DNA from: Belliella alkalica
Lineage (GTDB): Bacteria; Bacteroidota; Bacteroidia; Cytophagales; Cyclobacteriaceae
Assembly: GCF_022549785.1 (NCBI RefSeq)
Contig: NZ_JAKZGO010000001.1
Location: forward strand, 456,101 to 520,100
Direction: 5' to 3'
DNA: 64,000 nucleotides
Below, piece by piece: positions 10,134 through 24,170 of the stretch. A program made the translations under genes and the position numbers. Below the pieces are notes generated by a model, which was not told the DNA's origin, did not search any database, and saw nothing but the letters and a program-made list of their open reading frames with translations. The stretch's first letter is position 1, and each line of letters opens with the position of its first letter.

Positions 10134-12476
10134 CTAATTCAACGTAACAGGAACTAGTTCTCTCATAGCTTTAGCAGCCAAAACCATTTCGACTAGAGAC
10201 TTGTGGGTTTCTTCCCATTGTCTTGTTTTCAATCCACAATCAGGATTCACCCATATCTGTTCTGATGGGATTACATCTACTGCTTTTTGCAATAATTCTA
10301 TGATTTCAGCTTTGGAAGGGACCCTTGGTGCATGGATATCATATACTCCAGGCCCTATTTCATTTGGATACTTGAAGTCTGCAAAAGCATCCAAGAGCTC
10401 CATCTGTGAACGAGAGCATTCAATCGTAATCACATCGGCATCAAGGTTGGCTATATGACCAATGATGTCATTGAATTCTGAATAACACATGTGTGTATGA
10501 ATTTGGGTATTGTCATCTACCCCGCTTGCAGAGAGCTTAAATGCTTTGATAGCCCAATCTAGATATCCTTCCCAATGTTCTTCCCTGATTGGCAAACCTT
10601 CCCTCAATGCAGGCTCGTCTATCTGAATGATACGGATTCCTTCTTTTTCCAAGTCCAAAACTTCATCTCTAATAGCCAAAGCAATTTGATTACATGTCAC
10701 GCTTCTATCTTGATCATCCCTTACAAAGGACCATTGGAGAATAGTCACCGGTCCAGTAAGCATTCCCTTCACAAACTTTGGAGTGAGGGATTGAGCATAT
10801 TTTGACCAAAATATTGTCATCGGTTCCGACCTATACACATCTCCATAGATAATCGGTGGCTTGACGCATCGGCTGCCATAACTTTGAACCCAACCAAATT
10901 GAGTGAATGCAAAACCGTGCAAACGCTCACCGAAATACTCTACCATGTCATTTCTTTCAAATTCACCATGAACCAAGACATCTAAACCAATTTCTTCTTG
11001 GATTCTGATTGTCTTCTCCGTTTCATCTTTAATGAATTGTTCATAATTCTGCTTATCGATTCTTCCATTCTTGAAGTCAGCACGAACTTTTCTTACTTCC
11101 TTTGTTTGAGGAAATGAACCAATTGTAGTTGTTGGATAAAGCGGAAGATTCAGTAACTCTGCCTGTACAATCTTTCTATTCTGAAACGAAGATTTTCTCT
11201 CAAAATCAGAGTCCAAAACATTATTCAATCGCTTCTTCACTTCATTTTTATGAATCAAGCTTGAATTTATTCTGTTGCTGATTGCTTCCTGATTTTTATT
11301 GAAAATATCAGAAAATCCATTTTCAAAAGATTCTAAACCATTCGCATTTGGAACATTGACAGATTTTGACAATTTCTTCAAATCACTAATTTCCACCAAT
11401 TTTTGTTTGGCAAATGAAAGCCAACTTTTGATATCTTTATCAAGTTTCAACTCACTATCCAAATCGCATGGTGAATGAAGTAAAGAGCAAGAAGGAGCTA
11501 TAAATAATTTTTCGGGATCAACTTTTCTAAGAGCCTTTTGAATTAGATTCAATGAATTTTTATAATCATTTTTCCAAACATTTCTTCCGTCAATTAATCC
11601 AAGTGAAATGGAGAGATCTTTCGGTTTATTTCCTAACAACTCATACAATTGCTCGGGACAACGGACCAAATCTACATGGAGACAACAAACAGGTAAAGAT
11701 GTTGCTACGCTTATATTTTCGTACAAACCTCCAAAATAAGTTGCTAACAATGTCTTCAAGTGAGGGTACTTTTTTCTGATTTGGGAATAGACATTTTGAA
11801 AAGCCTCTTTTTCTTTAGTCGAAAGATTCATAGCCAAAAATGGTTCGTCAAACTGAACCCACTCTACACCATGTTCTACAAGCTTATCCAATATTTGGAA
11901 ATAAACAGGAAGAAGATTTTTTATTAGGTCAATGCGATCAAAACCGGCTTCTTTTTCCTTACCCAGTAAAAGGAAAGAAATTGGCCCCAAAATAACAGGC
12001 TTCGTTTTGAAACCTGCCAGTTTTGCCTCTGCAAATTCCTGAATGACTTTTGAAGAAAATAGCTTAAACTCTTGATTTTTCTTGAACTCCGGTACGATGT
12101 AATGATAATTCGTGTCAAACCATTTGGTCATTTCCATGGCCTTGATATCCAAACCATTTGCCTGATATCCTCTCGCCATTGCAAAGTACAAATCGATTTC
12201 AGACTTATTTTTGTCAAAAATTACAGAATGATACCTTTCGGGAATGGCTCCAATTGTGAATGCCATATCCAAAACATGGTCATAGTAAGAAAAGTCATTT
12301 GAAGGAATCAAATCTATCCCACATTCTTTCTGTAAGGTCCAATTGCTGAGCTTGATTTCGTTTCCTACTTGAAACAACTCCTGCCTTGTGATTTTTCCTG
12401 CCCAATAGTTTTCACAGGCCTTTTTCAATTCTCGCTGACTACCAATTCGCGGATAGCCAAGATTATGCGTTTGCAT
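10134..12476 (-). CDS. metE: Cobalamin-independent methionine synthase
   Basis: MetE transfers a methyl group from methyl-tetrahydrofolate-triglutamate to homocysteine to make methionine without vitamin B12. The 780-residue protein has the usual two barrels. The N-terminal one begins LGYPRIGSQRELKKACE; the C-terminal one starts near PTTTIGSFPQTKEVR. Zinc ligands are His662 and Cys664 (HTHMCYSE), Glu686 (TIEC) and Cys747 (PDCG), with the same spacing as in the E. coli enzyme. The 260-base leader contains a cobalamin riboswitch, so expression should fall when B12 is plentiful. It is monocistronic with its own terminator. Confidence 0.98.
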   Translation of the reverse strand: MQTHNLGYPRIGSQRELKKACENYWAGKITRQELFQVGNEIKLSNWTLQKECGIDLIPSNDFSYYDHVLDMAFTIGAIPERYHSVIFDKNKSEIDLYFAMARGYQANGLDIKAMEMTKWFDTNYHYIVPEFKKNQEFKLFSSKVIQEFAEAKLAGFKTKPVILGPISFLLLGKEKEAGFDRIDLIKNLLPVYFQILDKLVEHGVEWVQFDEPFLAMNLSTKEKEAFQNVYSQIRKKYPHLKTLLATYFGGLYENISVATSLPVCCLHVDLVRCPEQLYELLGNKPKDLSISLGLIDGRNVWKNDYKNSLNLIQKALRKVDPEKLFIAPSCSLLHSPCDLDSELKLDKDIKSWLSFAKQKLVEISDLKKLSKSVNVPNANGLESFENGFSDIFNKNQEAISNRINSSLIHKNEVKKRLNNVLDSDFERKSSFQNRKIVQAELLNLPLYPTTTIGSFPQTKEVRKVRADFKNGRIDKQNYEQFIKDETEKTIRIQEEIGLDVLVHGEFERNDMVEYFGERLHGFAFTQFGWVQSYGSRCVKPPIIYGDVYRSEPMTIFWSKYAQSLTPKFVKGMLTGPVTILQWSFVRDDQDRSVTCNQIALAIRDEVLDLEKEGIRIIQIDEPALREGLPIREEHWEGYLDWAIKAFKLSASGVDDNTQIHTHMCYSEFNDIIGHIANLDADVITIECSRSQMELLDAFADFKYPNEIGPGVYDIHAPRVPSKAEIIELLQKAVDVIPSEQIWVNPDCGLKTRQWEETHKSLVEMVLAAKAMRELVPVTLN

Positions 12477-12688: not shown

Positions 12689-12730
12689 TCACACTTGACT
12701 AAAAGCTTCAAATCGCGAAAGCATCGTCAT
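12689..12730 (-). CDS. Possible 13-codon leader ORF after the B12 riboswitch
   Basis: Immediately 3' of the B12-box side of the riboswitch, a short ORF reads MTMLSRFEAFSQV and then stops. It could also start at the second ATG. It has no recognisable family. Its position between the aptamer and metE would suit a leader peptide, but an ORF this short can arise by chance, so it is kept only as a candidate. Confidence 0.25.
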   Translation of the reverse strand: MTMLSRFEAFSQV

Positions 12731-12905
12731 ATCGAAATAGGCAGGTCTCCTGACTTGTAACAGCTTCTGTCGTCCTTCCCATTTTATTTAAAACAGTGGA
12801 CATACTAAGACAAAAACCTTTGGATTGTTACTTACAGTTGCGCGACAGTTCGTGATTTGCACACGATTCCCTTTTAATACACACCTAAGCATAACCAATT
12901 CCGGA
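12730..12905 (-). promoter_or_regulatory. Cobalamin (adenosylcobalamin) riboswitch upstream of metE
   Basis: Read on the minus strand, the classic aptamer blocks occur in order: AAAAGGGAATCGTGTG (12860-12875), a GCGCAACTGT block (12835-12844), CCACTG (12794-12799), GGGAAGG (12774-12780) and the B12 box with AAGTCAGGAGACCTGCC (about 12740-12757). This is the standard cobalamin riboswitch. Its target here is metE, which it should repress when B12 binds, leaving methionine synthesis to a B12-dependent MetH. No strong U-tailed terminator follows before metE, so the expression platform is unclear. Outer boundaries are approximate. Confidence 0.93.
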
Positions 12906-12939
12906 TGATATAGAATTATAGTAAAGAACTTTAATTTCA

Positions 12940-14036: not shown

Positions 14037-15110
14037 CTACCCCGCCATTTCAATGTGGCTTTCGAGAGAATTTTTTAAAACATCAATCACTAGGTGATAA
14101 AACACTTCTGGATTGTTGTTAATTTGAACTTCCTCCAATGCCTGATAATAAGCCAATCGAGAACTCAAATCACCTTTTAGGTTAGCTATCGAATATCCAT
14201 GTTTCATCAAAATTAAATTCATAACCAAGCGGCTAGTCCTTCCATTTCCATCTATAAACGGATGAATACTCACCAACCGCTCATGCAATTCTATTGCTAA
14301 AATAACGGGATGTAATTTATTTTTATTGGATGTATAATAAATGAAATAATCTTCCATCAACTTATCGATCATAAAAGGCTGAGGAGGCTCGTGCCTACTT
14401 CCTGATATGCGGACAGGCACTTTTCTATATCTACCGGCATTTTCTTTATCGATTCCCTTCAGAATCAAATAATGAAGATCCATTAGAACTCTCTTGCCAA
14501 AATCAATCTCATCTTTTATCAATTTTTCTATGTAATCAATGGCTTCAGAATGATTGACTGCCTCTAAATGCTCTCTCATTGACTTTCCTCCTATCGTAAT
14601 CCCTTCATTCACCACCAAGTGGGTCTCTTGAAGAGACAGTGTATTACCTTCAATCCTATTGCTTTCAAAGGTATAAGAGATATTGAAGTATTCTTTCAAT
14701 TTATGAAGCTGGGTCTGATTCAAAGGTTTTTTGGTTTGCCATTTTTCTTTTAGACTATCCAAGTTCTTTAGCTTTTCATTTACTTCTTGACTTAGACTCT
14801 CTTTTGCAAATATTTGACTTTTAGTCAGGTATTCTACTCTAGATTCAGCTAATGCCAACACTTTGGAAGGATCTTCTTCACTTTCTAATATTTGATAAAT
14901 CTTCTCTGCCAACCAAATTTTGCGAAGCTCTGACAATGGGATATCTAATACACGCGCTAATGCTACGAGATTATTTTCATTGGGAATCCTGTGTCCTTTT
15001 TCAAATTTTGATATTAATGCTGCGTCTAAATCACATTCTTTGGCTACTTCTCTTATTACTAGTCCTTTTTGATTTCGAGCATTTGTGAGTAACTGTGATA
15101 ATGACTTCAT
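14037..15110 (-). CDS. Fic family protein with N-terminal XRE helix-turn-helix
   Basis: This is a Fic-domain AMP-transferase (NMPylase) fused to a DNA-binding domain. From the ATG at 15110 the protein begins MKSLSQLLTNARNQKG, an XRE/HTH_3 domain covering residues about 5-62. The Fic core carries HPFIDGNGRTSR at 283-294, with the catalytic His and the anion-hole residues intact. The autoinhibitory motif S-x3-E-G is present upstream at Ser150 to Gly155, so the enzyme should be self-inhibited by Glu154. Targets are unknown; they may be a topoisomerase or the protein itself. The HTH plus a palindrome at the start codon suggests autoregulation. In-frame ATGs upstream (15131, 15176) would place the palindrome inside the gene. 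Confidence 0.9.
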   Translation of the reverse strand: MKSLSQLLTNARNQKGLVIREVAKECDLDAALISKFEKGHRIPNENNLVALARVLDIPLSELRKIWLAEKIYQILESEEDPSKVLALAESRVEYLTKSQIFAKESLSQEVNEKLKNLDSLKEKWQTKKPLNQTQLHKLKEYFNISYTFESNRIEGNTLSLQETHLVVNEGITIGGKSMREHLEAVNHSEAIDYIEKLIKDEIDFGKRVLMDLHYLILKGIDKENAGRYRKVPVRISGSRHEPPQPFMIDKLMEDYFIYYTSNKNKLHPVILAIELHERLVSIHPFIDGNGRTSRLVMNLILMKHGYSIANLKGDLSSRLAYYQALEEVQINNNPEVFYHLVIDVLKNSLESHIEMAG

Positions 15111-15112
15111 TT

Positions 15113-15148
15113 TGTTGACTTTTTTGATCATGACAAATTTAGTCAACA
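15113..15148. promoter_or_regulatory. Palindromic operator candidate at the xre-fic start
   Basis: TGTTGACT (15113-15120) and AGTCAACA (15141-15148) are perfect inverted repeats. The dyad centre falls exactly on the palindrome TCATGA (15128-15133). The site abuts the chosen ATG. A second repeat, TTGGAA/TTCCAA across six T, lies at 15159-15176. Autorepression by the XRE domain is inferred. Confidence 0.5.
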
Positions 15149-15241
15149 TTTTTTGGTTTTGGAATTTTTTTTCCAATTTTTCCTACTTTTTTCTCTCCTT
15201 CCAAAAAATTCTTCATTTCTTTAAATTTTTGGTATAAAACC

Positions 15242-15272
15242 TTGCATTTTATTTTAATACTTGTAACCTTTG
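15242..15272 (+). promoter_or_regulatory. Possible promoter of the arginine operon
   Basis: TAACCTTTG (15264-15272) resembles the TAnnTTTG -7 box with one extra base, and a TTG lies 19 bases upstream (15242). It precedes the leader ORF by about 18 bases. The match is weak. Confidence 0.3.
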
Positions 15273-15290
15273 TTGCGCAAGAAGCGAAAG

Positions 15291-15419
15291 ATGAAAAAAA
15301 CAAACACCATAGCTACTTTTTACAAAATTTACCCAACTTCCTTGGGTTTAACAGCTATGCTATTTTTAGCTCCTTTAAGAGAATTTAGGAACAGCTTTAG
15401 GGCAGTGTCCCTTCTATAA
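15291..15419 (+). CDS. 42-codon arginine leader peptide candidate
   Basis: An ATG ORF upstream of the arginine operon encodes 42 residues: a Lys/Thr-rich start, a hydrophobic middle (LGLTAMLFLAPL) and an arginine-rich end, REFRNSFRAVSLL. The three arginines use AGA (15378), AGG (15387) and AGG (15399), spaced three and four codons apart, just before alternative RNA hairpins. This is the arrangement expected for ribosome-mediated attenuation, or for a peptide that stalls the ribosome, coupled to arginine supply. I know of no described family with this sequence. Evidence is positional and codon-based only. Confidence 0.5.
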   Translation: MKKTNTIATFYKIYPTSLGLTAMLFLAPLREFRNSFRAVSLL

Positions 15420-15444
15420 TTTTTGGTGCCCTACGTGGGCGACC
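15399..15444 (+). promoter_or_regulatory. Mutually exclusive hairpins downstream of arginine codons
   Basis: AGGGCA (15399-15404, overlapping the third Arg codon) can pair with TGCCCT (15427-15432). The latter's bases alternatively form the hairpin GGTGCCC (15425-15431) with GGGCGACC (15437-15444, one bulged G). AGGG can also pair locally with CCCT. No U-run follows the last hairpin, so control would act on translation or through a factor rather than by a simple intrinsic terminator. Confidence 0.4.
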
Positions 15445-15520
15445 TACCCCATATACTTTATTACTAAACCACTTAATTTCAACCTAAGAGTCTTTACTCT
15501 GTCTATTACTATCAAACCAA

Positions 15521-16201
15521 ATGGACAATTACTCTTTTATTATTAAACCTGCTAGTCAGGAACACACATTATTCGCAGTTACCATAACTGATGAAATGGA
15601 GCAATCAGCCAAAGCAAGAGGCACCGGAATTGCAAAAAGATCCCCAGAATACATCGTTACAAAAATGATGGAGGGAAAAGCCGTCATTGCCACTACCACT
15701 GAAGGTGAATGGGCTGGATTCTGTTATATTGAAGCTTGGGGACATGGAAAGTATGTCGCAAACTCAGGATTGATTGTAGCACCAAAATTCAGGAAGTATG
15801 GATTGGCTAGAATGATCAAAAAAGAAATCTTCAAACTCAGTAGAACCAAATACCCAGACTCAAAAATTTTTGGATTGACTACCGGGGCAGCAGTTATGAA
15901 AATAAATTCTGAATTGGGATACATACCTGTTTCTTATTCAGACTTGACAGATGATGAACAATTCTGGAAAGGTTGCCAAAGCTGTGTGAATTTTGAAATA
16001 TTACAAAGTAAAAACAGACAAAACTGTCTTTGCACAGCCATGCTTTATGAACCAAAACTGAAAAAAGTAGAGCACGAAGATCTTGCATTGAGAAATGACT
16101 TCAAAAAGAATATAAAATTGTTTGAGAGGTGGACAAGATTGAAAAAATATGTCATGCTTAACATCAAAAAGACCAAAGACAAAACCATTAGCTTATTTTA
16201 A
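15521..16201 (+). CDS. GNAT acyltransferase, probable N-acylglutamate synthase
   Basis: This is a GCN5-related N-acyltransferase that heads the arginine operon. The acyl-CoA-binding region is visible as SGLIVAPKFRKYGLARMIKKE (motif A, R/Q-x-x-G-x-A type, about 82-102), followed by a helix/strand ending LGYIPVSY. No argA or argJ is seen in the window, so this protein is the natural candidate for the first step, transfer of an acetyl or succinyl group to glutamate; related GNATs sit in arg clusters of Bacteroides. The C-terminal part has a cysteine pattern, Cys152/Cys155 and Cys169/Cys171, that could bind metal. Function is inferred from context. Confidence 0.75.
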   Translation: MDNYSFIIKPASQEHTLFAVTITDEMEQSAKARGTGIAKRSPEYIVTKMMEGKAVIATTTEGEWAGFCYIEAWGHGKYVANSGLIVAPKFRKYGLARMIKKEIFKLSRTKYPDSKIFGLTTGAAVMKINSELGYIPVSYSDLTDDEQFWKGCQSCVNFEILQSKNRQNCLCTAMLYEPKLKKVEHEDLALRNDFKKNIKLFERWTRLKKYVMLNIKKTKDKTISLF

Positions 16202-16236: not shown

Positions 16237-17436
16237 ATGAAAAAAGTAGTATTAGCTTACAGCGGAGGATTAGACACAACTTTTTGCGCTCTCCATCTTT
16301 CCAAAGACCTTGGATATGAAGTTCACGCCGTATTGATCAATACAGGTGGATTCTCCCCTGAAGAACTAAACGAAACTGAAACAAGAGCAAATAGCCTTGG
16401 AATCTCATCATTTACAATTCTTGATGTCACCAAAACTTACTACCAAGAAGTAATTAAGTTTCTAGTATTTGGGAATGTATTGAAAAATCAAACTTACCCA
16501 CTTTCAGTATCTGCTGAGAGAATCTTACAAGCAAAAACTTTAGCAGAATATGCTAAGAAAATTGGAGCCAAATGTGTAGCCCATGGCAGCACCGGCGCTG
16601 GAAATGACCAAGTAAGATTCGATATGATTTTCCAAACGATCGTTCCAGATATTGAGATAATCACCCCTATCCGTGACCTTAAACTAAGCAGAGAAGCAGA
16701 AATAGAATATCTCAAAAAACATGGTGTTTCCATGAATTTTGAAAAGGCAGCCTACTCTATCAACAAAGGTATTTGGGGAACTTCAGTAGGAGGAAAAGAA
16801 ACATTGACTTCAAGTCAAACACTTCCAGAAGCTGCTTGGCCAACTCCTGCTACAAAAACCAATTCAGAAGAGATTTCTCTTACATTTGAAAAAGGTGAAT
16901 TGATCGGAGTAAATGATAAGAAATATGAAAACTCCGTGGACGCAATCCTTAAGGTAAATGAACTAGCCGCTCCTTATGGAATAGGCAGAGATATTCATGT
17001 TGGGGATACAATTATCGGTATCAAAGGTCGTGTAGGATTCGAAGCAGCAGCCCCTTTGATCATAATCAAATCCCATCAATTATTAGAAAAACATACATTG
17101 ACGAAGTGGCAAACATTTTGGAAGAACCAAATTTCTGAGTTCTATGGCAACCACTTACATGAGGGACATTACTTAGATCCAGTTATGAGAAATTTAGAAG
17201 CATTCTTAGCAGATAGCCAAGAATTTGTATCAGGAAAAGTCAAAGTATCGCTCCACCCTTATAGATTCCAGCTCATTGGTATCGAGTCTGAGCATGACTT
17301 GATGGCTTCCAAATTTGGTAGCTATGGAGAAATGAACAAAGGATATACAGCTGAAGATGTAAAAGGTTTCACAAGAATTTTGGGCAACCAAACCGCTATT
17401 TTCCATCAAGTAAACAAGAGTGACAATGAAAATTAA
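16237..17436 (+). CDS. argG: Argininosuccinate synthase
   Basis: ArgG joins citrulline and aspartate with ATP to make argininosuccinate in the cytoplasm. The ATP pyrophosphatase P-loop AYSGGLDTT is at residues 5-13, and AHGSTGAGNDQVRF, the citrulline/aspartate site, follows near residue 110. The 399-residue length is normal. It lies 35 bp after the GNAT gene, and its end overlaps argC by 11 bp, indicating coupled translation. Confidence 0.98.
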   Translation: MKKVVLAYSGGLDTTFCALHLSKDLGYEVHAVLINTGGFSPEELNETETRANSLGISSFTILDVTKTYYQEVIKFLVFGNVLKNQTYPLSVSAERILQAKTLAEYAKKIGAKCVAHGSTGAGNDQVRFDMIFQTIVPDIEIITPIRDLKLSREAEIEYLKKHGVSMNFEKAAYSINKGIWGTSVGGKETLTSSQTLPEAAWPTPATKTNSEEISLTFEKGELIGVNDKKYENSVDAILKVNELAAPYGIGRDIHVGDTIIGIKGRVGFEAAAPLIIIKSHQLLEKHTLTKWQTFWKNQISEFYGNHLHEGHYLDPVMRNLEAFLADSQEFVSGKVKVSLHPYRFQLIGIESEHDLMASKFGSYGEMNKGYTAEDVKGFTRILGNQTAIFHQVNKSDNEN

Positions 17437-18391
17437 GGTAGCAGTCATTGGCGCAGCAGGATATACAGGAGGAGAGTTATTGAGACTTTTGGTTCATCAT
17501 CCCAATGTTGAATTAGCATATATCCATAGCAATAGTCAAAAAGGAAAAACAGCCTCAGAAGTACATCCTGATCTGATTGGCGACATAGATCTGATTTTCA
17601 CTGACAAAGTAAGCACTGAGGGAATAGAAGCTGTATTCTTAGGGCTTCCGCATGGAGAGACCAAAGGATTTTTGGAAGAAAACAAGTTTGCAGAAGACAC
17701 CATCATCATCGATTTGAGCACAGATTTCAGGGATGAAAGCAACGATTTCGTATATGGTCTTCCAGAAGTCAACAAAGAAAAAGTAAAAGCAGCAAAAAAG
17801 ATAGCCAACCCTGGCTGTTTCGCAACTGGTATTCAACTAGCCCTTGCTCCTGCTATTTCTAAAGGATGGGTTAAAGATACAATCCATGTCTCGGGTATCA
17901 CAGGAAGTACTGGTGCCGGAAAAAAGCTTGCCGAAACCTCCCATTTCAGCTACAGAAACAATAACACATCTGTATATAAGCTATTTACACATCAACACCT
18001 CAAAGAAATCAAACAAACCTTTGGGCAAATTCAAAGTGATTTCAATTCGGACATTCTTTTTGTTCCATACAGAGGGAATTTTGCCAGAGGTATCTGGATC
18101 ACCGCATATTTCCCTTTCGAAGGAAGTCTTGATGAAGCATATGAGACTTATGAAGCTTTTTATAAAAACGCTCCATTTACACATGTATCCAAAAAAGATA
18201 TTGACCTCAAACAAGCAGTCAACACCAACAAATGTATCATTCATTTGGAAAAAGAAAATGGTCAATTAGTCGTCTATTCGGCTATTGACAATCTATTGAA
18301 AGGTGCGTCTGGACAAGCAGTGCAAAACTTCAATTTAGCATTTGGAATTGAAGAATATACTGGGTTAAAACTTAAAAGTATAGCTTTTTAA
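17426..18391 (+). CDS. argC: N-acyl-gamma-glutamyl-phosphate reductase
   Basis: ArgC reduces N-acyl-glutamyl phosphate to the semialdehyde with NADPH. The Rossmann start VAVIGAAGYTGGELLRLL is typical, and the catalytic cysteine sits in IANPGCFATG; GITGSTGAGKK follows. I start at the ATG at 17426 (MKIKVAVIG) rather than the in-frame GTG at 17420, because it matches the family N-terminus and overlaps argG by 11 bp. With 321 residues it belongs to the usual size class. In this lineage the acyl group may be succinyl instead of acetyl. Confidence 0.97.
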   Translation: MKIKVAVIGAAGYTGGELLRLLVHHPNVELAYIHSNSQKGKTASEVHPDLIGDIDLIFTDKVSTEGIEAVFLGLPHGETKGFLEENKFAEDTIIIDLSTDFRDESNDFVYGLPEVNKEKVKAAKKIANPGCFATGIQLALAPAISKGWVKDTIHVSGITGSTGAGKKLAETSHFSYRNNNTSVYKLFTHQHLKEIKQTFGQIQSDFNSDILFVPYRGNFARGIWITAYFPFEGSLDEAYETYEAFYKNAPFTHVSKKDIDLKQAVNTNKCIIHLEKENGQLVVYSAIDNLLKGASGQAVQNFNLAFGIEEYTGLKLKSIAF

Positions 18392-18402
18392 CACTTAGGA
18401 AA

Positions 18403-19533
18403 ATGAATTTATTTGACGTTTACCCCTTAATCAACGTTACCCCAGTCAAAGCCTCAGGTTCAAATTTATGGGATGAAAATGGTGTAGAGTATCTTGATTT
18501 GTATGGTGGTCATGCTGTGATTTCTGTTGGACATGCGCACCCTCACTTTAATCAGCGAATCAAAGATCAATTAGATCAAATCACCTTTTATTCAAATTCG
18601 GTACATATACCTATTCAAAAAAAACTAGCTTCAAAACTAGGAGAACTATCAGGGTATCCAGACTTCAATTTATTCCTATGCAATTCTGGAGCTGAAGCCA
18701 ATGAGAATGCATTAAAGCTTGCTTCATTTGTTACAGGCAAGTCTGGATTCATTTCGTTTTCAGGGGCTTTTCATGGAAGGACTTCAGGAGCAGTAGTGCT
18801 TACTGACAATCCTAAAATCATTGCACCAAATAATCAGCGCTCGGATGTACATATTCTTCCTTGGAATGATATTGATGCAGTAAAAAAGCAATTTGACAAA
18901 GGAAATATTGCTGGAATAATAATAGAAGGAATTCAAGGTGTTGGTGGTATTCATGTTCCAAATCCAGATTTTCTTCTGGAAATTTCAGATTTGTGCAAGA
19001 AAAATGGTGCAAAACTAATCCTAGATGAAGTTCAATCAGGTTATGGTAGAACTGGTAAGTTCTTTGCACATCAGTGGGTAGAAGAGCTTGTTCCTGACCT
19101 TATCACCATGGCAAAAGGAATGGGAAATGGCTATCCAATTGGAGGGGTTCTAATCCATCCAGAAATCGAAGCTAGCTATGGACTCCTAGGTACAACTTTT
19201 GGAGGAAACCATTTGGCCTGTGCAGCTGGACTGGCTGTTTTGGAAATCATCGAATTTGAAAACCTGATGGAAAAAGCTTTGGAATCAGGAGAGTTTTTGA
19301 TGAAAAACCTATCTAGTATAAAGGGAGTAAAAGAGGTCCGTGGAAAGGGCTTGATGATAGGTTTGGATTTGGACAAAGAATCCGCTCCAATCCGTTCTGA
19401 ATTAGTAAATAAATACAAAATATTCACGGGAAGTTCAGCAGGAAAACATACAATTCGTTTGCTTCCTCCTTTAAATATTGAAATTAATCAGCTATCTTCG
19501 TTTTTGATCTGTTTAAAAGAGATTTTGAATTAA
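18403..19533 (+). CDS. argD: Acetylornithine/succinylornithine aminotransferase
   Basis: ArgD is a PLP-dependent class III aminotransferase that converts the N-acyl glutamate semialdehyde to N-acylornithine using glutamate. CNSGAEANENALKLA binds the cofactor phosphate, LILDEVQSGYGRTGK holds the conserved Asp, and the Schiff-base lysine is in TMAKGMGNGYPIGG. The 376-residue length is typical. It follows argC by 11 bp in the operon. Confidence 0.97.
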   Translation: MNLFDVYPLINVTPVKASGSNLWDENGVEYLDLYGGHAVISVGHAHPHFNQRIKDQLDQITFYSNSVHIPIQKKLASKLGELSGYPDFNLFLCNSGAEANENALKLASFVTGKSGFISFSGAFHGRTSGAVVLTDNPKIIAPNNQRSDVHILPWNDIDAVKKQFDKGNIAGIIIEGIQGVGGIHVPNPDFLLEISDLCKKNGAKLILDEVQSGYGRTGKFFAHQWVEELVPDLITMAKGMGNGYPIGGVLIHPEIEASYGLLGTTFGGNHLACAAGLAVLEIIEFENLMEKALESGEFLMKNLSSIKGVKEVRGKGLMIGLDLDKESAPIRSELVNKYKIFTGSSAGKHTIRLLPPLNIEINQLSSFLICLKEILN

Positions 19534-19641: not shown

Positions 19642-20586
19642 ATGAAGCATTTCACTCAATTTGAAAATAAAAGTCTTGCAGAACAGCTTATTGAAGAAGC
19701 TTTAAAATACAAAACCGACCCACGTCAACATATCTCAAAAGGACTTGGAAAAAGAGTTGGTTGTATTTTCTTGAACCCATCACTAAGAACCCGCGCAAGT
19801 ACACAAATTGCTGCCTTAAACTTAGGTATGGAACCGATAGTGATGAACATGGACAAGGAAGGTTGGGCATTGGAGATGCAAGAAGGGGCCGTTATGAACA
19901 AAAGTACTGTCGAACATATCAAAGATGCTGCTGCTGTTTTGGGGACTTACTTCGATGTATTGGCGATTCGAGCTTTTCCTTCTTTATCAAACAAACAAGA
20001 AGATTCAGAAGATTTCGTCTTCAATCAGTTTATAAAATACTCCGGAGTACCTGTCATTAGTTTAGAAAGTGCCATCAGACATCCATTGCAAAGCTTGGCT
20101 GATATGATCACAATCCAAGAAAACATCATTGCAGGACATAAACCAAAAGTTGTCTTGACTTGGGCCCCACATATCAAAGCTATTCCCCATGCTGTGGCAA
20201 ATTCATTTGCCGAATGGGCTATTGGCTGCGGACATGATTTGACTATTGCCCATCCAGAAGGTTATGGTTTAGATTCGAAATTTACAAAAGGAGCAAAAAT
20301 CGAATATAACCAACAAAAAGCCTTAGTCGATGCAGATTTTGTGTATGTAAAAAATTGGTCAGCTTTTGATGATTATGGCAAAATCCATTGTACAGACACA
20401 TCTTGGATGCTCACTGAAAAGCATTTCAAGAATGCCAAAAACGCAAAAGTGATGCATTGCCTTCCTGTAAGGAGAAATGTCGAGTTATCTGATGAAATCC
20501 TCGATGGAAGCAGAAGTCTTGTCCAAAAACAAGCTGAAAACAGAATTTATGCTGCTCAAGCAGTTTTAAGTAAAATAATTGAATAA
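19642..20586 (+). CDS. argF': N-acylornithine (acetyl- or succinyl-) carbamoyltransferase
   Basis: This enzyme transfers a carbamoyl group to N-acylornithine, the Bacteroidota/Xanthomonas variant of the arginine pathway that acts before deacylation. The carbamoyl-phosphate loop SLRTR is at 47-51, with HPLQSLADM later and HCLPVRRNVELSDE near the C-terminus. The HCLPVRR form, in place of the HCLP-x-D/F-H seen in ordinary OTCases, fits the N-acyl class. Whether the substrate is acetyl- or succinylornithine cannot be fixed by eye. A 108-bp gap separates it from argD. Confidence 0.9.
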   Translation: MKHFTQFENKSLAEQLIEEALKYKTDPRQHISKGLGKRVGCIFLNPSLRTRASTQIAALNLGMEPIVMNMDKEGWALEMQEGAVMNKSTVEHIKDAAAVLGTYFDVLAIRAFPSLSNKQEDSEDFVFNQFIKYSGVPVISLESAIRHPLQSLADMITIQENIIAGHKPKVVLTWAPHIKAIPHAVANSFAEWAIGCGHDLTIAHPEGYGLDSKFTKGAKIEYNQQKALVDADFVYVKNWSAFDDYGKIHCTDTSWMLTEKHFKNAKNAKVMHCLPVRRNVELSDEILDGSRSLVQKQAENRIYAAQAVLSKIIE

Positions 20587-20612: not shown

Positions 20613-21413
20613 ATGAATATCAGCATAATCAAAATTGGAGGGAATGTCATAGACTTTCCCGAAAAACTAGATGAATTTCTTTATTTGTTCTCGAGATTTC
20701 CAGGAAAAAAGATCCTTATACACGGAGGCGGTGTCTTGGCATCCAAATTCGGTGAAAGTATGGGAGTAATGCCCGAAATGGTCGATGGAAGAAGAATTAC
20801 AGATAAAGACACCCTTGATATTGTCACCATGGTCTATGCCGGACTTATCAACAAGCAAATCGTCGCCAAACTCCAAAAACTAAAGCAAAATGCACTTGGT
20901 ATGACTGGCGCAGATGGAAACCTTATCCGATCAAAGAAAAGACCTATTAAAACCATTGACTATGGTTTCGTTGGAGATATTCAAGAAGTGAATACTGACT
21001 TGATCGGAACACTTTTAGACGAAAATATCATCCCTGTGATATGTGCCATCACACATGACAAAAAAGGACAACTACTCAATACCAATGCTGATAGCATTTC
21101 TTCTGAATTGGCAGTAGCCCTTTCTGGTAAGCATAAAGTCAATCTATATTACTGCTTCAACAAAGCGGGTGTTTTGATTGATGAGAAAAATGACGATTCC
21201 ATCGTACCATTGATCAATGAAGATATCTACTCAGAATTGAGAAAAGAAAATGTAATCCATTCTGGAATGATCCCAAAACTTGACAATGCTTTTGCAGCCT
21301 TGAATAAAGGTGTCAATCAGGTTTGGATTGGCAAAGCGGAAAATCTTCTTTTGGCAGCCAAAGGAAAAGTCTCCGGGACAAATATAGAAAAGCATAGATA
21401 CGATCTATATTGA
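20613..21413 (+). CDS. argB: N-acetylglutamate (N-acylglutamate) kinase
   Basis: ArgB phosphorylates N-acylglutamate, the second step of the pathway. It is an amino-acid-kinase-fold protein of 266 residues. The N-terminal KIGGN and the glycine-rich ILIHGGGVLASKFGESMG bind ATP and substrate, and NTNADSISSELAVALSG contacts the nucleotide. It starts 26 bp after the carbamoyltransferase. It lacks the N-terminal helix found in arginine-inhibited hexameric kinases, so feedback inhibition may rest elsewhere. Confidence 0.95.
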   Translation: MNISIIKIGGNVIDFPEKLDEFLYLFSRFPGKKILIHGGGVLASKFGESMGVMPEMVDGRRITDKDTLDIVTMVYAGLINKQIVAKLQKLKQNALGMTGADGNLIRSKKRPIKTIDYGFVGDIQEVNTDLIGTLLDENIIPVICAITHDKKGQLLNTNADSISSELAVALSGKHKVNLYYCFNKAGVLIDEKNDDSIVPLINEDIYSELRKENVIHSGMIPKLDNAFAALNKGVNQVWIGKAENLLLAAKGKVSGTNIEKHRYDLY

Positions 21414-21577: not shown

Positions 21578-22657
21578 ATGGAGTCAAACATTATAAGTAG
21601 CAGCACATATTCGGATAAAGCAATTTCATTACTGAAGGATCTGATCAAAATACCTTCTTTCAGCAAGGAAGAATCTTTGACTGCAGATATAATTGTTACT
21701 TTCCTTGATATGCATCAAATCTCTTCCAAAAGAAGTGGAAATAATATCATTGCCTACAACAAGCATTTTGATGTAAGCAAACCATCCATTTTGCTCAATT
21801 CCCATCATGATACCGTCAAACCAAATTCAGGATACACTAAAAATCCTTTTGAAGCCAGAATTGAAGATGGAAAACTATTTGGATTGGGAAGCAATGATGC
21901 TGGTGGATGCTTGGTTTGTTTGATCCAAACCTTTATCCATTATTATCCTCAAAATCTCCCCTACAACATCATCTTAGTAGCAAGTGCAGAAGAAGAAATA
22001 TCAGGAAAAAATGGTATTGAAAGCATTGTAAATCAGCTTCCAAAAATTGAATTGGCAATAGTTGGGGAACCTACATTGATGCAGATGGCTGTTGCTGAAA
22101 AAGGGTTGATGGTATTAGACGCAGTAGTCAAAGGAAGGGCTGGTCATGCTGCAAGAGAAGAGGGTGAAAATGCCATTTACAAAGCTTTGGAAGATCTGAA
22201 CACCATCAAAAACTATCAGTTTGAAAAAGAATCCAAATTCTTGGGTAAAACGAAAGTTTCAGCCACAATCATCCAAGCTGGAAGTCAACACAATGTAGTT
22301 CCTGATACTTGTACTTACACTTTGGATGTGCGAGTTACAGATAGCTACACATTGGAAGAAGCATTGATTGAGTTGAATACAGTACTCAAAGCTGAATTGA
22401 CTCCAAGGTCTATGCGACTCAACTCTTCCAAAGTCCCTCAAGACCACAAAATACTAAAAGTAGCAATCGAATTGAATCTTGTTCAATATGGTAGCCCTAC
22501 CCTGTCTGATCAAGCGCTGATTCCTTTCCCTTCAATAAAAATAGGCCCTGGAGATTCGGCAAGATCACATACTCCTGATGAATATATTTACATTGAAGAA
22601 ATCCATTCAGGCATAGAAGGTTACATAAATCTTTTAAATACCTATATCTTTGATTAA
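21578..22657 (+). CDS. argE: M20 deacylase, N-acylornithine/N-acylcitrulline deacylase
   Basis: This is a zinc-dependent M20-family amidohydrolase that removes the acyl group in arginine synthesis. With an N-acylornithine carbamoyltransferase in the operon, the substrate should be N-acylcitrulline. Metal ligands are visible: His in NSHHDTVKP, Asp in LGSNDAGG, Glu-Glu in ASAEEEISG, Glu in IVGEPT and a C-terminal His in RSHTPDEY. The 359-residue length fits. A 164-bp gap from argB holds no gene. Confidence 0.92.
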   Translation: MESNIISSSTYSDKAISLLKDLIKIPSFSKEESLTADIIVTFLDMHQISSKRSGNNIIAYNKHFDVSKPSILLNSHHDTVKPNSGYTKNPFEARIEDGKLFGLGSNDAGGCLVCLIQTFIHYYPQNLPYNIILVASAEEEISGKNGIESIVNQLPKIELAIVGEPTLMQMAVAEKGLMVLDAVVKGRAGHAAREEGENAIYKALEDLNTIKNYQFEKESKFLGKTKVSATIIQAGSQHNVVPDTCTYTLDVRVTDSYTLEEALIELNTVLKAELTPRSMRLNSSKVPQDHKILKVAIELNLVQYGSPTLSDQALIPFPSIKIGPGDSARSHTPDEYIYIEEIHSGIEGYINLLNTYIFD

Positions 22658-22829
22658 TCAAAATCCTATGTCGTTTAGATTTGGTCTGTGAGGTTTTTTG
22701 TTAAAGATAGAATTTAAACTTTTTTTGGCAAAAAAGCTATCAATAGTTTCCAACTTAACAAGCCTCGTTTCTTGACCAAACAGCATTTAATCAAAATCCC
22801 ACAATCTAATAAAGAAGCACATTCCAACT

Positions 22830-24170
22830 ATGAAACTTTGGCAAAAAGATAAGACAAGTAAAAAAGAAGTTGAATCATTTACAATTGGTAGAGATCCAGA
22901 ATTTGATATCCTCTTAGCTCCTTTTGATGTATTAGGTTCAATGGCTCATGCCGTAATGCTAGAGAAAATCGGTCTTTTGACTGCTGAAGAACTATCTATA
23001 TTGAGAAAAGGATTGAAGGATATTTATCTAGAAATAGAAAAAGGACAATTTCAGATTGAAGAAGGAGTTGAAGACGTCCATTCACAAGTTGAATTTTTAC
23101 TAACTCAACGATTCGGTGACGTTGGGAAGAAACTTCATAGTGGAAGATCCAGAAATGATCAGGTTTTGGTGGACTTGAAGCTTTACTATAGAGCAGTGAT
23201 TAGAGAATTGGTAGAAGAAGTTCAAGAATTGTTTACTCTACTTCAAAGCCTATCTGAAAAGCATAAAAATAACCTGATGCCAGGCTATACGCATACCCAA
23301 CTTGCAATGCCTTCATCATTTGGGCTGTGGTTCGGTTCATTTGCAGAAAGCCTGACTGAAGACTTGGATTTACTTCATGCCGCTTATAATCTTTCGAACA
23401 AGAACCCACTAGGTTCAGCTGCTGGATATGGTTCTTCATTCCCACTTGACAGAACACTCACGACAAGTTTGCTTGGCTTTGAGGATCTTCACCACAATGT
23501 AATCAATGCCCAAAATAGCCGAGGAAAAACAGAAAAAACAATTGCATATGCCATTGCTGGAATTGCAGGTACTCTAAACAAATTGGCAGCTGATATTTGT
23601 ATTTATATGAATCAGCATTTTGGTTTCCTAACTTTTCCTGATGAGCTTACTACAGGAAGCAGCATCATGCCACACAAAAAGAACCCTGATGTATTTGAAT
23701 TGATCAGAGCAAAAACAAATCAAATTCAATCAATTCCTAGTACAGTAACCCTTCAGCTTACCAACATGACGACGGGTTATCATAGAGACTTACAGTTATT
23801 GAAAGAATCTATTTTCCCAGGTGTGGAAATGACCTTAGATTGTATCAAAATGACAACATTTATGCTGAAAGAAGTGAAAATCAAAGAGCAAATTTTGAAA
23901 GACACCTTTTATAAGCATGTATTTTCTGTGGAAGTTGTAAATGAATTGGTTTTACAAGGTGTACCTTTTAGAGATGCTTACAAAAAAGTTGGTATGGACA
24001 TTGAAAAAGATGACTTTTCACCAAATCAAGAAAATGTAAAACATACACATGAAGGTAGTATTGGGAACCTGTGTACCAAAGAAATCAAGGTGAAAATGGA
24101 TAATGCAATTGCCAAGTTCGAATTTGAAAAAGTGAATCAAGCTTTGGAAAGTCTGATTAGTAATTCTTAA
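22830..24170 (+). CDS. argH: Argininosuccinate lyase
   Basis: ArgH splits argininosuccinate into arginine and fumarate, the last step. The fumarase/aspartase superfamily signature GSSIMPHKKNPD is present at about residues 270-281, with HSGRSRNDQV and GYTHTQLAMPSS before it. The 446-residue length is usual. It ends the arginine operon and is followed by a hairpin. Confidence 0.98.
   Translation: MKLWQKDKTSKKEVESFTIGRDPEFDILLAPFDVLGSMAHAVMLEKIGLLTAEELSILRKGLKDIYLEIEKGQFQIEEGVEDVHSQVEFLLTQRFGDVGKKLHSGRSRNDQVLVDLKLYYRAVIRELVEEVQELFTLLQSLSEKHKNNLMPGYTHTQLAMPSSFGLWFGSFAESLTEDLDLLHAAYNLSNKNPLGSAAGYGSSFPLDRTLTTSLLGFEDLHHNVINAQNSRGKTEKTIAYAIAGIAGTLNKLAADICIYMNQHFGFLTFPDELTTGSSIMPHKKNPDVFELIRAKTNQIQSIPSTVTLQLTNMTTGYHRDLQLLKESIFPGVEMTLDCIKMTTFMLKEVKIKEQILKDTFYKHVFSVEVVNELVLQGVPFRDAYKKVGMDIEKDDFSPNQENVKHTHEGSIGNLCTKEIKVKMDNAIAKFEFEKVNQALESLISNS

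Follow-up and report, generated by a model that had tools for sequence, protein, structure and literature searches.

The region at 15291-15444 of the window (the whole 64,000-nucleotide stretch of Belliella alkalica DNA analyzed) is probably a ribosome-mediated arginine attenuator leader of the arg operon behind it, one without an intrinsic terminator and with a possibly Rho-dependent output. That the Arg codons of its short peptide sense arginine shortage is very likely; sensing is well supported by comparison among relatives, while the output step is one that we infer. The conserved structure is, as predicted from aligned relatives, two consecutive hairpins, P1 and then P2. An earlier note on this DNA had proposed arginine-dependent attenuation or stalling here; P1, the UAYGY loop of P2 and the absence of ArgR are additions to it.

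The leader and the operon behind it

The earlier note described a 42-codon ATG ORF ending 101 bp before the first gene of the arg operon, and its coordinates (15291-15419) were verified in the sequence (Table 1). The encoded 42 aa peptide, MKKTNTIATFYKIYPTSLGLTAMLFLAPLREFRNSFRAVSLL, has the C-terminal Arg cluster LREFRNSFRA, whose Arg codons are all AGA or AGG, as had been said, with three in eight codons. The other particulars were also found in place: AGGGCA at 15399-15404 and TGCCCT at 15427-15432; the GGTGCCC/GGGC(G)ACC stem, present as the hairpin at 15425-15444; no T run directly 3' of that hairpin, hence no U-tail; and the last AGG (15399-15401) inside a hairpin, where it forms part of P1. 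This last AGG starts 26 nt 5' of P2 and the first Arg codon 47 nt 5' of it.

Table 1. Features of the leader region and the arg operon in the window
Feature	Position	Strand	Basis and remarks
Putative promoter	15242-15272	+	Sequence; TTG 15242-15244 and AACCTTTG 15265-15272; similar blocks before the leader in relatives, by eye
Leader ORF, 42 codons	15291-15419	+	ATG 15291, stop TAA 15417-15419; Arg cluster kept in relatives
Putative helix P0 inside the ORF	15308-15359	+	Centroid fold; CATAGCT 15308-15314 with AGCTATG 15353-15359
Arg codons	AGA 15378-15380, AGG 15387-15389, AGG 15399-15401	+	Sequence
Hairpin P1	15399-15412	+	Local fold; AGGG 15399-15402 with CCCT 15409-15412; last Arg codon is the 5' arm
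U-rich linker TCTATAATTTTT	15413-15424	+	Sequence; holds the leader stop codon; P1-P2 linker also in relatives
Hairpin P2	15425-15444	+	Covariation, fold, loop counts; loop UACGU 15432-15436, covarying stem
C-rich, G-poor rut-like stretch	15445-15520	+	Composition; 20 C and 3 G in 76 nt
GNAT acetyltransferase, first operon gene	15521-16201	+	Weak N-acetyltransferase profile match only, E 0.00043
argG	16237-17436	+	ORF call, NCBIfam
argC	17420-18391	+	ORF call, NCBIfam
argD	18403-19533	+	ORF call, NCBIfam
argF-like (N-acetylornithine carbamoyltransferase type; argF')	19642-20586	+	ORF call, NCBIfam
argB	20613-21413	+	ORF call, NCBIfam
argE/dapE-like	21578-22657	+	ORF call, NCBIfam
argH	22830-24170	+	ORF call, NCBIfam

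From the putative promoter, transcription would begin some 10 nt 5' of the leader ATG, so that the leader would be transcribed first. Its AACCTTTG block differs at one position from TAnnTTTG, the Bacteroidota consensus; a sigma-70 scan found no promoter on the plus strand at the leader. The CATAGC/GCTATG words of the putative helix P0 recur by eye in several relatives, and the 80 nt 5' of the Arg cluster have a mean z of -0.76 over 39 loci, which supports P0 weakly. Pairing of this upstream part of the ORF with the stretch behind P2, through CATAGC, GCTATG and CAATAGC words, was considered and set aside, no pairing signal being found in 39 loci.

The operon order in Table 1 has NCBIfam support, with some best matches below the curated cut-offs and a weak match for GNAT. 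Among the matches listed, the closest GNAT homologue with a species name is that of Belliella aquatica (Cyclobacteriaceae, Cytophagales), at 89% identity. A divergent gene with HTH-like and Fic-like parts (weak NCBIfam matches) adjoins the leader at 14037-15176 on the minus strand, and a cobalamin riboswitch (RF00174, 101.4 bits) lies at 12723-12914, minus strand, upstream of a large ORF at 10134-12476 on the same strand.

Conservation of the Arg codons and the hairpins

The search for the GNAT protein was positive for 44 of 59 relatives; in a draw of 247 genomes from the class it turned up in 83. The regions upstream of 124 distinct GNAT matches were compared. The leader test asked for an ORF 10-90 codons long that ends 30-270 nt before the gene and has three or more Arg codons among its last 15, taking the best ORF of each region. 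It was passed by 86/124 regions, versus 23/124 reverse complements and 437/2480 dinucleotide shuffles (17.6%). With at least four Arg codons, the counts were 49/124, 9/124 and 88/2480, respectively. These counts support the proposal of an arginine-codon leader peptide for the arg operon; the note had named lack of conservation of the ORF or its codons in relatives as evidence to the contrary, and in the comparison both are conserved. Since the loci are related by descent, p-values throughout are optimistic.

Among the Arg codons of the passing ORFs, AGG is the most frequent (140/329). The use of AGA and AGG holds in the group of relatives around the window, and CGN codons are used by some families. 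The Arg clusters are C-terminal, with endings such as FRNSFRA, RRPARV, RRRPYMPRA, RRCRPARFVRI, RRPRI and PRPRRGC. The N-terminal half of the peptide drifts between relatives, so that the Arg codons, not the whole peptide sequence, seem to be kept. Among 80 separately fetched named loci (Algoriphagus, Cecembia, Cyclobacterium, Chitinophaga, Sediminibacterium, Pedobacter and others; L150, L154, L155 and L180 repeat earlier loci), 61 pass the test. Real-looking leaders with only two Arg codons fail it (Cyclobacterium L165, L167 and L170, and several Pedobacter loci), and some non-leader ORFs are counted, e.g. in L169 and L180. The exact word CCTACGTGG occurs at five further sites of the genome, which by eye look coding or unrelated.

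P2, with the loop UAYGY or close to it, was assigned by loop pattern and by eye between the Arg cluster and GNAT in 31 of the first 44 loci and was unrecognized in 13; in 15 later loci it was assigned by eye. The spacing and energy tests used the 46 loci with an assigned P2, and their results are conditional on this assignment. In a MAFFT alignment of 25 sequences, covariation of the P2 stem is 0.670, versus 0.226 +- 0.037 in shuffles and a slid maximum of 0.263. The corresponding values are 0.711, 0.198 +- 0.023 and 0.188 in 56 model-aligned matches (53 distinct; 56 of 67 input sources), an alignment that was fitted to the structure. In these 56 matches, 94.7% of the inner-stem cells and 66.7% of the outer two pairs are paired, and the loop (U 53/56, A 55/56, G 56/56, final Y 55/56) is conserved to a much greater degree than the stem. 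The own arms of P2 pair at -10.04 kcal/mol versus -5.13 kcal/mol for swapped arms (p 7e-12). Seven near-identical loci were removed from the own/swapped tests, leaving 38 loci for P2 and for the switch described below, and 39 for long-range pairing.

A covariance model built on the 25 sequences detects the window leader as the single site in the own genome (E 5e-9; the next match has E 6.7). In the 247 whole genomes it gives 13 matches at E <=0.05, a number near that expected by chance; these are the window and four directly before GNAT-argG (ranks 1, 2, 3 and 6), and eight others without such a gene behind them. Of the 80 named loci, 24 have a model match that stops 60-135 nt short of the GNAT match; two more model matches lie elsewhere.

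An Arg codon, in most cases AGG, opens the 5' arm of P1; the stop codon of the leader lies inside P1 or a few bases 3' of it. The P1 region is more stable than shuffles (mean z -1.48, p 1e-11, 45 loci); the fold is weak or absent in four loci of family f32 and in the window (z -0.52). An Arg codon begins 23-31 nt 5' of P2 in 45/46 loci, the gap from stop to P2 is 3-22 nt, and the distance from P2 to the GNAT match is 53-163 nt (31 loci). The window leader taken alone has a fold stability z of 0.01, and its local pieces have z of -1.39 and -0.43; it is not unusually stable, and the case is a comparative one. A loop-loop contact between P1 and P2 (CAUAG/CUAUG), seen by eye in a few loci, was not kept. 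In Chitinophaga and Sediminibacterium loci (e.g. L173, L174, L183, L207, L226), a stem seems by eye to start at the leader stop codon (TGATAGCG with CGCTATC, TGATAGG with CCTATCA), perhaps as a variant of the downstream hairpin.

The earlier note also proposed that AGGGCA and TGCCCT pair as the mutually exclusive partner of the P2 stem, and suggested looking for conserved codons and covariation of both stems. Across relatives the codons are kept and P2 covaries, but AGGGCA/TGCCCT does not co-evolve: own duplexes have -7.47 and swapped ones -7.48 kcal/mol (p 0.63; own family p 0.48), and in 10-14 of 25 sequences the part of the helix outside AGG breaks down. AGG:CCU persists across species, as follows from conservation of the AGG codon and of the CCUA of P2. 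The minimum free energy (MFE) fold of the window leader holds not P1 and P2 but a 7-bp helix (15398-15404 with 15427-15433) together with 15435-15439 paired with 15448-15452; in the local fold of the window, P1 and P2 win. The MFE fold in the window notwithstanding, the pairing was dropped as a general switch, since P2 clears the own/swapped comparison and this pairing gains nothing in it. It may yet play a part among the closest relatives.

Read-out of the leader and competing explanations

In the proposed mechanism, a short peptide with a C-terminal Arg cluster would be translated from the 5' end of the operon mRNA, a step for which there is comparative support. When charged Arg-tRNA is scarce, the ribosome would stall within the cluster. 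If it is the conserved Arg codon that occupies the A site, the front of the ribosome, at about +13, would cover P1 and leave P2 free. The first Arg codon lies 47 nt before P2, so a stall there would leave P1 free, and stalls at different codons would differ in effect. When arginine is plentiful, the ribosome would reach the stop codon in or near P1 and leave, and P1 and P2 could both fold. RNA polymerase would then stop in the C-rich stretch behind P2, turning the operon off; in arginine shortage it would continue, turning the operon on. Transcription attenuation is the output that we somewhat favor. With no U-tailed terminator at P2, stopping would most likely be factor-dependent; Rho is a plausible candidate for the agent, though its part is held more tentatively.

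Several points count against this explanation: i) the C-rich stretch would lie 3' of the predicted position of the stalled ribosome, leaving the model short of a way for stalling to keep Rho off; ii) the leader test is failed, for want of three Arg codons, by 26 of the 78 class loci without a strong ArgR (52 pass); and iii) P2 is missed in 13/44 loci, the window leader is no more stable than shuffles, and its MFE fold is the alternative pairing.

The composition behind P2 fits a Rho loading site without proving one. The stretch at 15445-15520 has the greatest excess of C over G among 31 upstream regions of the window, itself counted. The mean (C-G)/length behind P2 is 0.158 over 31 loci, versus 0.03 in the window upstream regions (p 8.5e-8); the loci share ancestry, and a single genome supplied the controls. 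Structure behind P2 is near the shuffle level (mean z -0.37, 39 loci). Within the same operon, the upstream region of argH ranks second in the window for C-richness, so that the C bias behind P2 could have another cause; by eye, no Arg cluster was seen in this region (22658-22829), which was examined for its C bias.

No classical intrinsic terminator was found between the leader and GNAT; there is one weak terminator-like site on the plus strand, 15435-15452, with 5 pairs and the tail ATACTTTATT (2 sites on both strands versus 0.5 in shuffles), and among the relatives examined a counterpart was seen by eye only in L002. A strict scan for a hairpin followed by a U run was passed by 14/124 loci, eight of them with a leader of at least three Arg codons; by eye, only L082 and L100 have a clear terminator, and both belong to family f58, of which three loci were seen. 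The leaders of these two (SPRRQPNTAG or LRRRPYAAG) end in GGCAGGC, able to pair with the 5' arm of the terminator. The antiterminators have -14.9 and -19.5 kcal/mol, and the U-tailed terminators -18.0 and -18.9 kcal/mol. By these modeled energies the two loci are textbook cases of transcription attenuation, with the operon predicted to be on when the Arg codons stall the ribosome, and they support both this type of output and its direction. In the group of the window, no conserved, mutually exclusive antiterminator was found in the codon region; the energies fit one in L082 and L100. Both loci also have a second small ORF between the leader terminator and GNAT, with similar C-termini (HFESIQSIADMLNYT, HFEQIQSIHDMLNYT).

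An unlikely alternative keeps the same arginine leader and makes its output translational or a matter of mRNA decay, the change in P1 and P2 altering access to the GNAT start or for an RNase. The scarcity of U-tailed terminators (14/124) is in line with it, as are two systems in which Arg codons act in this way: Salmonella orf34-speF (PMC6386406) and rbfL, where stalling acts on translation (PMC13009471). Against it stand the terminators of the f58 loci, which point to transcription, the variable distance from P2 to GNAT, and the lack of any sign, in 39 loci, that the leader pairs with the GNAT start in particular (own -16.77, swapped -16.96 kcal/mol, p 0.73). The same test, blunt because P1 and P2 pair with themselves, gave no signal between the leader and the 60 nt 3' of P2. 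A classical trp-type attenuator, with an intrinsic terminator at P2, at P1 with the U-rich linker, or at 15435-15452, and with AGGGCA/TGCCCT in the switch, is quite improbable. It draws on the full-leader MFE fold, which holds both the 7-bp helix and 15435-15439/15448-15452, on the terminator-like site of the plus strand, on the antiterminators and terminators of L082 and L100, on a T run within a few bases of P1 in L149, and on a GC hairpin at the leader end of L128 that is followed by TAATTTTT. Yet P2, which excludes both MFE helices, covaries strongly and has no U run directly behind it, whereas the alternative helix lacks co-evolution and half of it fails in 10-14/25 sequences; the 15435-15452 hairpin has, by eye, its one counterpart among the relatives examined in L002.

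The loop of P2, far better kept than the stem, could itself be the sensor, binding a protein or a ligand, with the Arg codons only tuning the speed of the ribosome. In favor of this, P2 is also arg-specific, with one copy found in the genome; against it, the Arg cluster is more widely conserved than P2, the spacing from Arg codon to P2 is kept while the stop position is not, and UNYG-type loops may persist for stability alone (those of L120, L125 and L182 are UUCG). We regard a sensor of this kind as decidedly improbable. The ORF is short, its N-terminal half is poorly conserved and the window leader is no more stable than shuffles, as might be expected of a chance ORF in a 5' untranslated region; given the counts of 86/124 and 61/80, the spacing and the covariation of P2, chance is very unlikely, to the point of being negligible. 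The arginine attenuator with hairpins P1 and P2 is the preferred reading.

Known systems, other leaders and ArgR

Computational surveys of attenuation have covered Bacteroidetes, so an earlier prediction of this leader is possible. Among the literature matches listed, a set that leaves subscription papers mostly outside, none describes an arginine leader for an arg operon of Bacteroidota, in keeping with the earlier statement that the leader is undescribed. In an Rfam scan of the window at gathering scores, the cobalamin riboswitch elsewhere was the only match, with no T-box or known riboswitch at the leader; at 15180-15560, seven matches with E 0.69-8.4 are all far below gathering scores. Three leaders, that of the window included, match no Pfam-A family at E 1, and no SpeFL/DUF2618 match was obtained.

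The arg leader shares with the trp, his and ilv attenuators a short leader ORF, clustered codons for the end product before the operon, and hairpins around these codons; such an ORF before a biosynthetic operon was found here, its translation being predicted. It differs in having no intrinsic terminator or conserved antiterminator, and has instead P1, the UAYGY hairpin P2 and the C-rich stretch. The closest worked mechanism is that of Salmonella orf34-speF (DUF2618), which has Arg codons in the leader ORF, a hairpin 3' of the stop codon, and Rho and RNase G acting on it (PMC6386406). A role for Rho at the arg leader would be a further likeness. The orf34-speF leader controls ornithine decarboxylase, and two early Arg codons matter there rather than a C-terminal cluster (PMC6386406). 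In rbfL of Staphylococcus aureus, AGA and AGG codons sense the arginine supply, with toeprint pauses at +13; this leader acts on a biofilm regulator instead of an arg operon, by blocking its ribosome binding site, and the part of the report available describes no P1/P2 (PMC13009471). Clues for leader-peptide attenuation at amino-acid operons come from a transcriptome of Flavobacterium psychrophilum, arginine being unnamed in the available text (PMC9723704). Bacteroid-trp RNA of Bacteroidetes appears in a published table among probable cis-regulatory RNAs (PMC2864571). Its Rfam model, RF01692, has no match at the arg leader; the own genome has a 44.4-bit candidate, under the cut-off of 49, before a trpE-like gene.

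Other leaders of the same genome were recognized by eye. The trpE-like gene (best NCBIfam match trpE, below cut-off) is preceded by a leader, MKTIQAKYWWWHLTS..., with WWW and a U-tailed hairpin (L037, G000:C51:12556-12688, minus strand), in which it differs from the arg leader. The leader of ilvD, MFKSVSLIGIIILIIGKQ, is isoleucine-rich and also has a U-tailed hairpin (L231, G000:C18); that of hisG, MNRNFLHIDLFLATAHAGTVHHIHHSS, has a hairpin without a U-tail, as in the arg leader (L230, G000:C95). With leaders before the trpE-like gene, ilvD, hisG and the arg operon, leader control looks general in this genome, with two kinds of output. The arg leader would be an attenuator without an intrinsic terminator, with covariation and a conserved loop, beside two U-tailed leaders (trp, ilv) of the same genome, a setting in which the means of stopping transcription in such Bacteroidota leaders can be tested directly.

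ArgR (PF01316) was found in none of 28 genomes of the order (a subset of the 59 relatives), the own genome included; Bacteroides ihuae was among the positive controls. In the class draw, 14/247 genomes have PF01316 at E <=0.001 and 11 of them reach the cut-off, ten strongly (E < 1e-18) and the eleventh (G221) marginally. Four of the ten strong genomes have no GNAT match. The other six carry GNAT; each has an ArgR frame that stops 28-121 nt short of the GNAT match, placing argR directly upstream, in the position of the leader (L135, L138, L140, L142, L145 and L146; families f52 and f76). Two of these six loci pass the leader test, with 3 and 4 Arg codons apparently inside coding sequence, and the test is therefore noisy. 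Within the order, the leader seems to substitute for the ArgR repressor. A wider reading is put forward only tentatively: that an Arg leader found across many families of the class replaced ArgR in most Bacteroidia with the operon, and that Cytophagales and several other families use a new terminator-less device, with an Arg codon at the foot of P1, an almost constant 26-nt spacing, and the covarying P2, whose near-invariant UAYGY loop would be read by a factor of transcription or translation. The leader offers a testable account of how members of the class where ArgR was not found may control arginine synthesis, and the six class genomes in which argR sits where others have the leader present a natural swap.
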